Positions 4,747 to 9,521 of a stretch of DNA of 38,453 nt are shown here, one piece after another (positions within the stretch are counted from its first letter, which is position 1; the number at the start of each line of letters is the position of its first letter). The stretch is from Verrucomicrobiota bacterium. Its GTDB lineage: Bacteria; Verrucomicrobiota; Verrucomicrobiia; Limisphaerales; UBA9464. Location of the stretch: assembly GCA_016871615.1 (NCBI GenBank), contig VHCX01000030.1:1-38453 (forward strand), in the 5' to 3' direction. The translations under genes and the position numbers were made by a program. The notes under the pieces were generated by a model that ran no database searches, was not told where the DNA came from, and was given only the letters and a program-made list of their open reading frames with translations.

Positions 4747-5181
4747 TCAGCGTTCCAGGAGGGTGATCCGGGGCGGGGGGCGACGGCTCAGCGGATTGTC
4801 GAGCATGTCGGACGATTCGGTCGCCTGTCGCCAGGATCGGATGTCCTCGAGGGCGGCGGTCAAGTCGAGTCGCCGATGGGGATTGGGGTAGCGGGCGAGG
4901 TTGGCCGCGGCGAGATCGAACAGCGCGATGGCGGGCCTCAGGCGCCCTTTCTGGAGGTGGACGAAGGCCCCGGCCCACTGGATGAGTCCCTTGTGGAAGG
5001 CGTAGTCCGCGCCGGTCTTGCCTTCGGCAAGCCAGAGTTCCTCGAGGACGTCATGGGCCTCGAAGTAGAGGCCTTGGTTGAAGCATCGGAAGAACCCGAG
5101 GTAATGGCGCGGGAGGTCTTCGTTGCCGTTTGCGGGCAGGTCGGCCATCAGGGCGGCTATTCTGGGGCTCTTGTGGCTCAT
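4747..5181 (-). CDS. DUF309 family protein
   Basis: A 144-residue all-helical protein. It has the DUF309 hallmarks: FNQGLYFEAHDVLEELWL, with the conserved E-H-D-E-W residues, then FHKGLIQWAGAFVHLQKGR and FDLAAANLARYPN. The function of the family is unknown; the conserved acidic and His residues suggest a metal or ligand site between two helical pairs. The ATG at 5181 (MSHKSPR) is preferred; another in-frame ATG at 5232 would add 17 Arg/Ser/Ala-rich residues. It is divergent from the pst-like cluster; the 236 bases between them show no clear promoter or repeat. Confidence 0.82.
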   Translation of the reverse strand: MSHKSPRIAALMADLPANGNEDLPRHYLGFFRCFNQGLYFEAHDVLEELWLAEGKTGADYAFHKGLIQWAGAFVHLQKGRLRPAIALFDLAAANLARYPNPHRRLDLTAALEDIRSWRQATESSDMLDNPLSRRPPPRITLLER

Positions 5182-5417
5182 GAGTCGGTTGGAGTGGCCC
5201 CGGGAACGGGCCGATGCGGCGGCCCGGTCCATGGGGACTTCCCGGCGGACGCCTCCGGAGGCTGGGGCCGGGCGGTGACCCTGCCAAGCCCGACGGGCGT
5301 CCTGGAGAGGTGCGCGGACGGGGGGCTTGCGCGGTGCCCCGCCGTCACAAAGACCCCGCCTCGGCGCTTTCCAAGCGGCCGCATCAGGTCGATCCTCCGA
5401 TCGAGGATCCGTCCCGG

Positions 5418-6368
5418 ATGAACCTAGAGCCGCATGCCCCGATTCCCCGATTCCGGGAGTCCGACGCCCACCGGCGGACCACCGCCGGGCTCGACCGTTG
5501 GGCGGAACGGGCCGTCGCCGTCGTGGCGTGGAGCCTCGGGCTCGCCCTGCTGCTGCTCGTGGGCATCCTGGTGGTGGACGCGTTGGCGGCCCAGTCGATG
5601 ACCGGTCCGGAACCGATGCCGGGGACCGCTCGCAGGGTGCCCCTTGCAGGGGCAGCGCTGAAGGACGCGGCGATACACGCGATCCTGGGGTGCCTCGTCC
5701 TTCTCCCGGCCGGTGTCCTCACGGGCTTGTTCCTGGCCGAATACGCCCCGCCCGGTGGTCGGGCTCCCGGAATGTTGCGGTGGGCCATCAGGGCGCTGGC
5801 CGGGGTGCCTGGCGTGGTCGTCGGGCTGTTCGGCGTGTTCGCTCCCGGCATCGGGGGGGAATCCTGGCTGGGCCGGTGGGCGGGTGACCCCCCCTTCGGA
5901 ACGGCCGGGATCTGGGTCCCGATGGCGCTCGCCTTGATGGCTCTTCCGCCGGCGGTGACGGCGACCGAGCAGGCATTCCGGGGCCTTCCCCAGTCCTGGC
6001 GCGCATCGGGGTTTGCCCTCGGTGCGACCCGCCTCCAGGGGATCGTCCATCTGTTGCTGCCCGGGGCCCTGCCGGGCATCGCAGGCGGGGTGCTCGTTGC
6101 CCTCGGCCGGATCGTGGGTGCCGTGACGCCGATGCTGCTGCTCTGGGCCGCCACGCTTCCGCCGGAGACCGGCGCAGTCGCGGCCCTGGCGAACCGGATG
6201 CCGGGTCCCTCCGTCGATGGGATGGCCGCCGCCGACCGCCGGACCCTGCTCGCGGGGCTTTGGTTCCTCGCGGTGGGTTGCGGGATCCTGAATGCGGTCG
6301 CCGCCGGGTTGAGGGAACGGCGTGGCCCGTCCCCGGTCGATCAAGGCTGGGTCCCTGACCGCCCATGA
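5418..6368 (+). CDS. pstA: PstA-like phosphate ABC transporter permease
   Basis: A 316-residue inner-membrane permease. Predicted membrane segments lie at about 31-55, 85-107, 123-140, 165-182, 220-250 and 285-305. The cytoplasmic coupling loop is well kept (SWRASGFALGATRLQGIVHLLLPGALPG), matching the PstA/PhnE-type EAA loop, and is followed by GRIVGAVTPMLLL, which corresponds to the PstA GRAIGETAP region with Glu changed to Val. In the Pst system PstA pairs with PstC and is driven by PstB; neither pstC nor the binding-protein gene pstS is in the window. It overlaps the next gene by ATGA at 6365, so the two are translationally coupled. The frame is open upstream, but homology begins near the chosen ATG. 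Confidence 0.8.
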   Translation: MNLEPHAPIPRFRESDAHRRTTAGLDRWAERAVAVVAWSLGLALLLLVGILVVDALAAQSMTGPEPMPGTARRVPLAGAALKDAAIHAILGCLVLLPAGVLTGLFLAEYAPPGGRAPGMLRWAIRALAGVPGVVVGLFGVFAPGIGGESWLGRWAGDPPFGTAGIWVPMALALMALPPAVTATEQAFRGLPQSWRASGFALGATRLQGIVHLLLPGALPGIAGGVLVALGRIVGAVTPMLLLWAATLPPETGAVAALANRMPGPSVDGMAAADRRTLLAGLWFLAVGCGILNAVAAGLRERRGPSPVDQGWVPDRP

Positions 6369-7159
6369 ATGACGAACCGTTTCCGAACCCGCCCGCCCTT
6401 CCGAACCCGCCCGCGGGCGTCGAATTCTCCGACCTGTCCCTGAGGCACGGGGCGGTGCAGGTGCTGCGGGGCATCAGCCTGAGGGTCCCGGAGCGGCGGA
6501 TCACCGCCCTGATCGGGCCGTCGGATTGCGGCAAGTCCACGCTGCTCCGCTGCGTCAACCGCATGGTCGACCTCGTCGATGACCTGCGGCTCTCCGGCCG
6601 GTGTCTGGTGGGCGGTGTCGATGTCCGCGACCCGGCCCTGGACGTCGGCGAATTGCGCCGGACGGTGGGATTCGTCCCGGGAGACCCCGGGCGGTGGCCC
6701 GGGTCGATCTTCGACCATGTGGCCCTTGGTCTGAAGATCGCCGGATGCACCGGTTCCGAGCTGGGGGACCGCGTGGCCTTGGCCCTCCAGAGGGCGGCGC
6801 TCTGGCACGAGGTGAACGACCGGTTGACCGAGCCCGCGCAGGACCTCCCGCCGGGCTTGTATCGACGCCTGACCCTGGCCCGCGCCCTCGCGGTCGGGCC
6901 GGAGGTGCTGCTGCTGGACGACCCGACCCTCGGGCTCGACCCGGTCGAGGCGGCCAGCCTCGAGGACCTGATCCGCGACCTGCGGCAGGACCACACGATC
7001 CTCCTGACCACCCACCACCTTTCCCTCGCCGCGCGGATTTCGGACCGCACGGCATTCCTCGATCGGGGCGAACTCCTCGAGACCGACGAGACAGGCCGCC
7101 TGTTCTCCCGACCCCGGGATCCCCGAACCGAGCGGTTCATCACCGGGCGACGTGATTGA
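6365..7159 (+). CDS. PstB-like ABC ATPase with degenerate catalytic motifs
   Basis: A 264-residue protein that aligns with PstB over its whole length, including the terminal RFITGRR. The Walker A motif is GPSDCGKST (51-59), with Gly changed to Asp54 but the lysine kept. The Q-loop has Gly106 where PstB has Gln (VGFVPGDP against VGMVFQKP). The ABC signature LSGGQ is replaced by LPPGL (161-165). Walker B reads LLLDDP, so the catalytic Glu is Asp186. The H-loop His217 is kept. In ABC ATPases these changes usually weaken or abolish hydrolysis. It may be a regulatory or slowly cycling paralogue. A true pstB may lie elsewhere in the genome. Confidence 0.82.
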   Translation: MNDEPFPNPPALPNPPAGVEFSDLSLRHGAVQVLRGISLRVPERRITALIGPSDCGKSTLLRCVNRMVDLVDDLRLSGRCLVGGVDVRDPALDVGELRRTVGFVPGDPGRWPGSIFDHVALGLKIAGCTGSELGDRVALALQRAALWHEVNDRLTEPAQDLPPGLYRRLTLARALAVGPEVLLLDDPTLGLDPVEAASLEDLIRDLRQDHTILLTTHHLSLAARISDRTAFLDRGELLETDETGRLFSRPRDPRTERFITGRRD

Positions 7160-7391
7160 ATCCCCATGGCTCCTAGACCTTGTCGATCATCCGCGTGCGC
7201 CCCTCGCGAGGCCTCGTCCCATGTGCCGCTGCCGCAATCGCGGCAACCTCTCCTCGGCCGCCTTCCGGCTCATCGGCATCCCTTCTCTTGGCCGGCGTCA
7301 CCGTTTTTGGGTCAACGACCTCATCCTCCACCGCCAAGCCAATCCCACCGGGTGTCAAACGTTTCGAGGCAACCGGCCCCGTCCTCCTTCC
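7160..7391. other. Gap between pstB-like gene and phoU
   Basis: No gene or hairpin with a T tract was seen in these 232 bases. The phoU frame is open back to a GTG at 7152 that overlaps the pstB-like stop, which would give an 80-residue N-terminal extension rich in Pro, Arg and Cys and unlike PhoU; I consider it non-coding leader. Confidence 0.4.
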
Positions 7392-8129
7392 ATGGATTCC
7401 GTCGTTTCCAAAGGCGCGGCGTCGCGGCCCAATGGGCGGGTGACTCCGCTCGAGCCGGACATCGCCCGCCTCAAGGACCAGTTGCTGCGCATGGCGGCGA
7501 TGGCCGAGAGCCTGGTCGTGAGGGCGGTCCGAGCGCTGGTCGAACGCGATGATGAACTGGCCCGCCGTGTGGCCGACGGCGACGAGCCGCTGGACCAACT
7601 CGAGATGGAACTCGACGCGGCCGCCGTGGCGCTGCTGACGAAGGCGCCCCTGGCGGGCCAACTGCGGCTCATCACGGTCGCCATCAAGGTGACCCGGGAT
7701 CTGGAGCGCATCGGCGACGAGTCCACCACCATCGCCCGCCGGGCCCTGAAGCTGGGCCGTGAACCGCAGCTCAAGCCCTACGAGGACATCCCCAGGATGT
7801 CCCGCATGGCCGCCGAGATGCTCCGCGACGCCCTGGATGCCTTCGTCCACGGCGACACGGCCAAGGCCCGGGCCGTCGTCCCACGGGACAAGGACGTCGA
7901 CGCCCTGAACCGCGCCCTCCACCGGGAGTTGACCGACCTGATGACCGGCGATCCCGCGCGCATCGGCCGATGCCTGCACCTGATGACCATCAGCAAGGCC
8001 CTCGAGCGCATCGCCGACCACGCCAAGAACATCGCCGAGGAGGCGGTGTACCTGTACGAGGCCCGCGACATCCGCCACCCCGACGCCGCACCCCCCGCCG
8101 AAGCCCTCCGCCCGGCCAGCCCGCCGTGA
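7392..8129 (+). CDS. phoU: Phosphate signalling complex protein PhoU
   Basis: A 245-residue protein with the two three-helix bundles of PhoU. Both metal-cluster motifs are visible: DLERIGDESTTIARR in the first half and ALERIADHAKNIAEE in the second. LKDQLLRMAAMAESLVVRAV near residue 25 is the typical first helix. PhoU restrains the PhoR sensor kinase through the Pst transporter and limits phosphate uptake. Its place after pstA- and pstB-like genes is the normal order. The Pro/Ala-rich last 20 residues are probably disordered. The ATG at 7392 matches the usual family length. Confidence 0.93.
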   Translation: MDSVVSKGAASRPNGRVTPLEPDIARLKDQLLRMAAMAESLVVRAVRALVERDDELARRVADGDEPLDQLEMELDAAAVALLTKAPLAGQLRLITVAIKVTRDLERIGDESTTIARRALKLGREPQLKPYEDIPRMSRMAAEMLRDALDAFVHGDTAKARAVVPRDKDVDALNRALHRELTDLMTGDPARIGRCLHLMTISKALERIADHAKNIAEEAVYLYEARDIRHPDAAPPAEALRPASPP

Positions 8130-8249: not shown

Positions 8250-9521
8250 ATGGCAAATGTGATTCTCGTCGGCGCCCAGTGGGGCGACGAAGGCAAGGGC
8301 AAGATCATCGACGTGCTGACCGAGCAGTCGGAGGTCGTGGTCCGCACGCAAGGTGGCAACAACGCGGGCCACACGGTCTTCGTGGGCAAGGACAAGTACG
8401 TCCTGCACCTGATCCCCAGCGGCATCCTCCGGCCCGACAAGGTGTGCGTGATCGGCAACGGCGTGGTCATGGACCCCGTGGGCCTGGTGAAGGAACTCGA
8501 CGGCCTGGCCAAGCTGGGCGTGTCGGTGACGCCCGACAATTTCCGCATCTCCGAGACGGCGCACGTGGTGTTCCCGTGGCACCGCGAGCTCGACGGGGCC
8601 CGCGAGGCCCAGAAGGGCGACCACAAGATCGGCACCACCAAGCGCGGCATCGGCCCGACCTACGGCGACAAGGTGGCCCGCGTGGGTTTCCGCGTGCTCG
8701 ACCTCGTCCACCGGGAGCGGTTCCCGGTGCTGCTGCGCGCGCGCCTGGCCGAGAACAACGCGGTGATCCAGTCCCTCGGCGGCACTCCGCTCGACTACGA
8801 TCAGGTGCTGGCCGAGTCCACAGCCGCCGCCGATCGCCTGCGACCCTTCGTCATCAACACCGTGGTGTACCTGCATGAGGTGACCCAGCGGGGTGGCAAC
8901 ATCCTGTTCGAGGGCGCCCAGGGCACCTTCCTCGACATCGACCACGGCACCTATCCGTTCGTGACCTCGTCGAACACCACGTCGGGCGGCGCCTGCACGG
9001 GGTCGGGAGTGCCGCCGAACCGCATGGACAAGGTCATCGGCGTGCTCAAGGCCTACACCACCCGCGTCGGCGGCGGTCCGCTGCCGACCGAGAGCGCCGA
9101 GGTGAGCGACCTGCTGCATGGCATGGGCCGCGAGTTCGGCTCAACCACGGGACGGGCCCGCCGCTGCGGCTGGTTCGACGCCGTGGCCACCCGCCACGCC
9201 ACGATGGTCAACGGCATCGATGAACTGGCCATCACCAACATCGATGGCCTGGATTCGCTGAAGACCCTCCAGGTGTGCGTGGCCTACCGCGCCGATGGCC
9301 AGACCCTGCGTCATTTCCCGGCCGACCACGAGGTGCTGTCCCGCTGCGAGCCGGTGTACGAGACCTTCCCCGGTTGGGAGACCTCCACCGAGCAGGCCAC
9401 CCGCTGGGAGGACCTGCCGGTGAACTGCCGCAACTACCTGCTGGCCATCTCGCAGATGACGGGTGCGCGCCTGACCATCGCCAGTGTTGGCCCGGCCCGT
9501 GCGCAGACCCTCTTCGTCTGA
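8250..9521 (+). CDS. purA: Adenylosuccinate synthase
   Basis: A 423-residue cytoplasmic enzyme, close to the usual length, that makes adenylosuccinate from IMP, aspartate and GTP in the first committed step to AMP. The N-terminal nucleotide loop is VGAQWGDEGKGK, with catalytic Asp13 and Lys18. NNAGHTV, with the catalytic His, and GTTKRGIGPTYGDK follow. LFEGAQGTFLDIDHGTYPFVTSSNT is the family signature in mid-protein, and the GTP-binding end is also intact. The ATG at 8250 is fixed by the conserved N-terminus. The uppS gene begins 10 bases after the stop, so the two are probably co-transcribed. Confidence 0.97.
   Translation: MANVILVGAQWGDEGKGKIIDVLTEQSEVVVRTQGGNNAGHTVFVGKDKYVLHLIPSGILRPDKVCVIGNGVVMDPVGLVKELDGLAKLGVSVTPDNFRISETAHVVFPWHRELDGAREAQKGDHKIGTTKRGIGPTYGDKVARVGFRVLDLVHRERFPVLLRARLAENNAVIQSLGGTPLDYDQVLAESTAAADRLRPFVINTVVYLHEVTQRGGNILFEGAQGTFLDIDHGTYPFVTSSNTTSGGACTGSGVPPNRMDKVIGVLKAYTTRVGGGPLPTESAEVSDLLHGMGREFGSTTGRARRCGWFDAVATRHATMVNGIDELAITNIDGLDSLKTLQVCVAYRADGQTLRHFPADHEVLSRCEPVYETFPGWETSTEQATRWEDLPVNCRNYLLAISQMTGARLTIASVGPARAQTLFV

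Follow-up and report, generated by a model that had tools for sequence, protein, structure and literature searches.

Why would a bacterium keep the ATPase of a phosphate transporter as an intact gene once its catalytic and permease-coupling motifs have been altered? This question is raised by a stretch of 38,453 nucleotides (hereafter the window) on contig VHCX01000030.1 of assembly GCA_016871615.1, from a Verrucomicrobiota bacterium of the GTDB lineage UBA9464. An open reading frame (ORF) at 6365-7159 on the forward strand runs uninterrupted for 264 aa and encodes a PstB-like ATPase with such altered motifs. We consider it about an even chance that, after the loss of transport, PstB was kept as a part of PhoU/PhoR signalling, probably tethered by one leftover permease. 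The sequence-only reading that pointed to this gene had proposed a regulatory or very slow ABC module informing PhoU, and a signalling role with PhoU is, at that strength, still the best reading.

The relationship of the protein to PstB is apparent from several comparisons. TIGR00972 (PstB) is its best family, although the score of 251 bits lies under the curated cut-off of 343.2; the PstB proteins of relatives G010, G012 and G008 score 277, 262.5 and 315.5 bits, and the canonical protein of G011 scores 362.1. E. coli PstB is the best Protein Data Bank (PDB) chain by sequence. An AlphaFold model built from a 28-row alignment reached a mean predicted local distance difference test (pLDDT) score of 90.6, with residues 1-12 below 50; the predicted fold is intact and PDB ranks 1 and 2 are E. 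coli PstB (9k3x and 9k3s; template modelling (TM) scores 0.88/0.94, 40% identity). Length, the C-terminal TGR, the Walker A Lys, the Walker B Asp, the H-loop His and a gene position near pstA-like and phoU genes are likewise common to the two proteins. In contrast, the Q-loop Gln, the LSGGQ signature, the catalytic Glu and one Walker A Gly of E. coli PstB are replaced in the window protein. Walker A reads GPSDCGKS (6515-6538), where G54D places an Asp at the fourth position and the consensus GxxGxGK[ST] is no longer matched; the Q-loop carries Q106G (6680-6682), the signature is LPPGL at residues 161-165 (6845-6859) and the Walker B catalytic position is Asp186 (E186D; 6920-6922). Lys57 and Ser58 of Walker A, Asp185 of Walker B, Asp192 of the D-loop and His217 of the H-loop (7013-7015) are retained. 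These four changes, together with a PstB-like length and end motif and an intact frame coupled to a PstA-like gene, had all been claimed from the sequence and were borne out by alignment, which found 29 of 100 invariant columns changed compared to 0-2 in canonical controls. The coupling consists of an ATGA overlap at 6365-6368, where the ATG of pstB lies on the TGA of the PstA-like gene. Because it lacks several features that define a working PstB, the window protein, a derived orthologue, was not filed as a functional PstB.

Unlike E. coli PstB, the window protein has no PstS or PstC partner that could be found in its own genome (G000, 95.6% complete). There was no PF12849 (PstS) match at E <= 1e-5, and the best TIGR02138 (PstC) match, at 69.8 bits, was the PstA-like gene itself. 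This gene (5418-6368, forward strand; TIGR00974 96.7 bits, cut-off 193.45) is degenerate, 31 of the 79 columns invariant in 13 canonical PstA rows being changed, and its RxxGE stretch has Ala in place of the conserved Glu. Its ATPase-contacting loop, which we take to be the EAA loop, is still recognisable. The sequence-only reading was silent on the missing PstC and PstS and on the degenerate PstA-like neighbour; it had suggested looking for a second canonical pstSCAB in the genome, and searches for ABC, PstC and PstS proteins found none, the next best of 52 ABC matches being 37% identical with 93.6 bits. Trivial causes for these absences were considered. The locus is contiguous, with fewer than 200 bases between the DUF309-like and PstA-like genes and no room for pstC upstream of the latter, so that an assembly gap was rejected for pstC. 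Incompleteness might explain the missing pstS of one genome but hardly that of the seven described below (completeness 77-96%), and contamination was rejected because the flanks agree with those of congeners, both in gene order and in the level of PurA identity. Replacement by an NptA-type transporter (PF02690) was found in none of the 19 genomes of the genus. A PiT transporter is present in G000, and a short gene adjoining it is weakly DUF47-like (19.7 bits, under the cut-off). Away from the pst locus, G000 also encodes a PhoB-like regulator (TIGR02154 249.4 bits) followed by a PnpS/PhoR-like kinase (NF046044 354.7 bits and TIGR02966 286.3 bits) at L164:1468-3400, with all three scores under the family cut-offs.

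The altered PstB belongs to a pattern that extends over the genus. A PstB match was found in 19/19 genomes, and PstS, judged by PF12849 alone, was present in 12 and not found in seven (G000, G003, G008, G009, G010, G012 and G018). Exactly these seven carry a changed PstB, and the 12 with PstS have a canonical one. The reference consisted of 25 canonical rows, namely the 12 genus proteins and the 13 best-scoring non-genus matches with a fetched locus, which have 100 invariant columns in common. Of these, 29 are changed in G000, 24 in G012 and G008, 21 in G010 and G009 and 11 in G003 and G018; when each canonical row was left out in turn, it departed at 0-2 of 100-102 invariant columns. Changes at the motifs comprise Q106R and LPEGL in G010, GSGGAGKS, LSEEQ and H217R in G012, LSEGQ in G003 and G018, and E186K with an intact LSGGQ in G008 (L093:1501-2244), the close relative G009 keeping the Glu. 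G54D occurs in G000 only. Fifty-two of the 100 columns are kept in all seven altered proteins, including G51, G56, K57, D185, P187 and D192.

The permeases have suffered as well. G000 and G010 have no PstC, G008 and G009 no PstA, and each clade that lost one permease kept the other with an open frame; G003, G018 and G012 retain both in altered form. In the remaining subunits of the seven genomes, 10-41/79 columns are changed in PstA, 19-24/67 in PstC and 11-29/100 in PstB, the left-one-out control having been made for PstB. The missing permeases of G002 and G006 are uninformative because contig ends cut their pst loci. The window gene is orthologous by position, as the order DUF309-like gene, pst genes, phoU and purA recurs in 8/18 congeners (G001, G003, G005, G007, G011, G012, G016 and G017), there with pstC, pstA and pstB. 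In the window, the upstream flank is the gene at 4747-5232 on the reverse strand, which we assign to the DUF309 family by assumption and which is 73.9% identical to the G011 copy. Downstream, the homologous part of PhoU occupies 7440-8129 on the forward strand (TIGR02135 190.1 bits, above the cut-off of 130.25; 82% identity to G011 PhoU) in an ORF that opens at 7152, its exact start being uncertain, and PurA follows at 8250-9521 on the same strand (94% identity to the G011 protein). In G004, G006, G013 and G014 the DUF309-like gene lies behind phoU, and some other loci are cut by contig ends. G008 (L089, oriented 5878-7865) and G009 (L088) carry pstC and pstB without pstA and away from phoU; in both genomes (L149:7009-8606 in G008, L150 in G009), phoU adjoins cupin and DUF309-like genes elsewhere.

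Three changes of the PstS state are required on a tree built from RpoB, PurA and PhoU, all three of them forced by branches with good support. PF12849 is present in 37/40 genomes outside the genus, so that losses of PstS are the simpler reading. The tree includes PhoU, itself a gene of the locus, and G002, G012 and G018 contribute few columns to it, the placement of G012 being weakly supported (71/29); a second rpoB fragment of G014, probably in the wrong frame, gives a long branch for that genome only. The sister genomes G000 and G010 have seven derived PstB residues in common (N109G, S162P, Q165L, Q167R, M184L, A190G and M219L), which indicates that some of the change took place before the two diverged. 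The sequence-only reading had envisaged a distinct conserved subfamily, and had taken canonical relatives around a lone, rapidly changing copy as the opposite case. A conserved subfamily was rejected since the altered residues differ between lineages and 12/18 congeners are canonical. Canonical relatives and a fast copy were indeed found, but the copy is not alone, given the residues common with G010 and five more PstS-less genomes with changed PstB. A scan of genome contigs gave six loci, only one of them close (L094, 62%), which probably adds no new genome beyond G018. The public record of L094 is labelled Akkermansia muciniphila (metagenome-assembled genome MaE-04nov19-188), and this label looks doubtful.

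Is PstB still under selection in genomes without PstS? The gene is open and full length in 7/7 of them, with no stop or frameshift. The ratio of nonsynonymous to synonymous differences per site (pN/pS) is 0.60 in the pair G000-G010 (Fisher p 5e-6), 0.20 in G008-G009 and 0.13 in G003-G018, in each case below all 480 neutral simulations (8 settings x 60, under a simple Hasegawa-Kishino-Yano (HKY) model that includes no codon-use selection). Changes at third positions were 1.68 times as frequent as those at first and second positions in G000-G010 compared to a neutral maximum of 1.34, and 3.20 and 6.29 in the other two pairs compared to 2.95 and 2.14. Purifying selection therefore continues to act on PstB in the three tested pairs, but is relaxed in the clade of the window: dN/dS by the method of Nei and Gojobori (NG86) is 0.51 in G000-G010 versus 0.05-0.10 in five PstS-bearing pairs (G013-G014, G011-G002, G011-G007, G004-G006 and G011-G016). 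In line with what the sequence-only reading had held, the gene is thus not in simple neutral decay, neutral evolution being rejected in all three pairs, narrowly in G000-G010. PstB is more constrained than PstC in G008-G009 (0.20 and 0.42) and more than both permeases in G003-G018 (0.13, compared to 0.20 for PstA and 0.53 for PstC, Fisher p 0.057). The PstC of G003 and G018 (L081, L080), not clearly below neutral, is possibly at an early stage of permease loss.

The acceleration is confined to PstB when it is compared with its non-pst neighbours. In PstS-less genomes, invariant columns are changed at 2-7/147 in PhoU (five genomes), 1-10/389 in PurA (four), 3-6/72 in the DUF309-like protein (five) and 17-40/145 in PstB (five); the corresponding values in the PstS-bearing control G016 are 4/151, 15/404, 6/78 and 4/149. 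PstB is accelerated in these genomes, whereas PhoU, PurA and the DUF309-like protein are not. Within PstB, changes concentrate on motif columns, defined as Walker A, Q-loop, signature, Walker B to D-loop and H-loop, with ranges set after the changes had been seen: 22/39 motif columns versus 7/61 others in G000 (p 2.6e-6), 16/39 versus 5/61 in G010 (p 1e-4) and 18/39 versus 6/61 in G012 (p 7e-5). The trend is weak in G003 and G018 (7 versus 4 each, p 0.10).

PstB and PhoU also tend to occur together. PhoU (PF01895) was found in 19/19 genus genomes, and all seven PstS-less ones additionally have a PiT transporter and a PhoR-like kinase, the latter scoring below the family cut-off. Among 59 genomes, ten have no PstS; seven of these keep PstB and PhoU and three (G025, G030 and G058) have neither. 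Six of the 59 have no PstB match at 1e-40, a threshold on which this absence rests, and PhoU was found in none of the six; five PstB-bearing non-genus genomes searched alongside comprised four with PhoU and one, G024, without, the PhoU search outside the genus having covered 11/40 genomes. Three of the PstB-less genomes (G041, G048 and G057) may be incomplete at the locus, since they have a PF12849 match. As the seven keepers belong to one genus, the co-occurrence amounts to about three versus three events. A survey of 926 genomes reports that 99.4% of PhoU-bearing genomes have PstSCAB (PMC13170248), and a study of E. coli describes PhoU as necessary and not sufficient (PMC4423584).

These observations can be accommodated if the lineage of the window lost high-affinity phosphate transport, as the missing PstS and PstC and the degenerate PstA suggest, and uptake presumably moved to PiT. 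PstB would then probably be held at the membrane by the sole remaining permease and would still meet PhoU. In E. coli without pstSCAB-phoU, the Pho response is high irrespective of phosphate. Similarly, repression of the Pho response by PhoU and the PhoR-like kinase might still depend on a PstB partner, without which the response would be stuck on. Residues of PstB for ATP hydrolysis and permease coupling would have been free to change once transport was dispensable, and the body of the protein would not. We infer that PhoU binding, tethering by PstA and a signalling output persist in this lineage alongside uptake by PiT, and that this would be why the gene was retained.

Mutants of E. coli PstB provide a possible parallel. 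By sequence alignment, residue 167 of the window protein (Arg; 6863-6865) corresponds to Q160 of E. coli PstB and residue 186 to E179. Position 167 is Gln in 25/25 canonical rows and in G003, G018, G008 and G009, and Arg in G000, G010 and G012. In E. coli, PstB with Q160K no longer transports phosphate yet constantly signals sufficiency, and with E179Q it constantly signals starvation (PMC5775613). As in Q160K, the residue is now basic in the window protein; in contrast, the mutant retains PstS, PstC, PstA and all other motifs (PMC5775613). Some of the PstB changes, such as R167 at the Q160 site, may thus favour an open, phosphate-sufficient state. The parallel is suggestive only, because further residues differ as well, E186D lies at the second of these sites and Q167R possibly arose in a single event.

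A number of findings weigh against a retained signalling role. Firstly, the alterations lack a common denominator: position 106 is Gly in G000, Arg in G010 and Gln in the others, position 186 is Asp in G000, Lys in G008 and Glu elsewhere, and G009 keeps all catalytic residues, its only motif change being GANGCGKS, which is still within the Walker A consensus. No motif enrichment was seen in G008 (9/39 versus 15/61) or G009 (8 versus 13). G54D breaks that consensus, which makes nucleotide binding less sure in G000 than in the others. E186D and E186K touch the E179 site, whose E179Q mutant gives the opposite output, and Q167R is not found in four of the seven genomes, while G000, G010 and G012 may form one clade (71/29) and represent one event. 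Secondly, the value of 0.60 in G000-G010 is only just under the lowest simulation of 0.61 (means 0.80-1.33), and the PstA-like gene of this pair is about as constrained (0.66), so that PstB is not singled out there. Thirdly, the PstS-bearing pair G013-G004 (L085, L084) has a PstB dN/dS of 0.24 and 72% identity, with PhoU at 93%; fast divergence of PstB also occurs with PstS present, though without motif loss. The pst genes may possibly have been replaced in either G004 or G013. Finally, the three relatives without both PstB and PhoU fit a series of slow decay.

Slow decay is the strongest rival, and we regard it as a serious possibility, if on balance a doubtful one. The loss of PstS would have made the transporter dispensable, PstC or PstA would have gone first, and PstB would be a relic whose frame is open because it lies in an operon ending in the needed phoU. 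All remaining Pst subunits of the seven genomes are degenerate to some degree, which speaks for this account, as do the lineage-specific residues, the relatives with nothing left and the position of G000-G010 at the edge of the neutral simulations. It does not sit well with the complete lack of stops and frameshifts in the seven pstB genes, with the rejection of neutrality, strong in G003-G018 and G008-G009 and accompanied by a third-position bias, or with changes focused on motifs rather than spread uniformly in G000, G010 and G012. Moreover, since pstB is not beside phoU in G008 and G009, a shared operon cannot explain its retention there.

We consider it improbable that PstB is a silent passenger and that the PhoR-like kinase responds to intracellular phosphate through PhoU alone, as has been reported for PhoU and SenX3 of Mycobacterium smegmatis. 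The evolutionary rate of PhoU is normal (pN/pS 0.16), and work on M. smegmatis indicates that PhoU can act without Pst (PMC12301784), which also counts against a need for PstB in our genomes. Persistence of phosphate signalling without Pst is the likeness to that system; the difference is that pstB was deleted there in the laboratory (PMC12301784) and was kept by evolution in the lineage of the window. A silent PstB leaves the purifying selection on it unexplained, and it fits poorly with the near-universal company of PhoU and PstSCAB in the survey (PMC13170248) and with the insufficiency of PhoU in the E. coli study (PMC4423584). Least likely of all, with only a slim chance, is an altered working transporter in which a PstA homodimer (or PstC in G008 and G009) and PstB import or export something at a low rate: one permease with an open frame is kept per clade and the ATPase-contact loop of G000 PstA is recognisable, but the PstB of G000 combines changes in signature and Q-loop with a replaced catalytic Glu, the RxxGE Glu of G000 PstA is Ala, different clades keep different permeases and no PstS-type binding protein was found with PF12849.

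Among the papers listed in a literature search of open-licence PMC papers, we found no account of PstB kept without PstS. The tandem pstB1/pstB2 of Enterococcus faecalis (PMC12096839) resemble the present case in that PstB homologues have unequal roles, and differ from it in that the window genome has only one copy, which is altered, and lacks a full transporter. At 196-1857, the window also encodes a protein with what is presumably a cupredoxin-like domain at its end.

How Pst informs PhoR, through transport or through the conformation of PstB, is an old open question. Lineages in which PstB and PhoU persist with a PhoR-like kinase but without transport would offer natural material for separating the two functions. 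Tentatively, and at rather less than even chances, we propose such a natural separation of function here: after repeated loss of PstS, a transport-dead PstB would serve PhoU-PhoR as a signalling subunit, with one leftover permease as its anchor, one group of genomes having fixed a basic residue at the site where Q160K locks the E. coli complex in the phosphate-sufficient state. Since PhoU without a full PstSCAB is rare in the survey (PMC13170248) and at least three changes of the PstS state occurred here, this genus would be useful for finding the parts of Pst that signalling needs.
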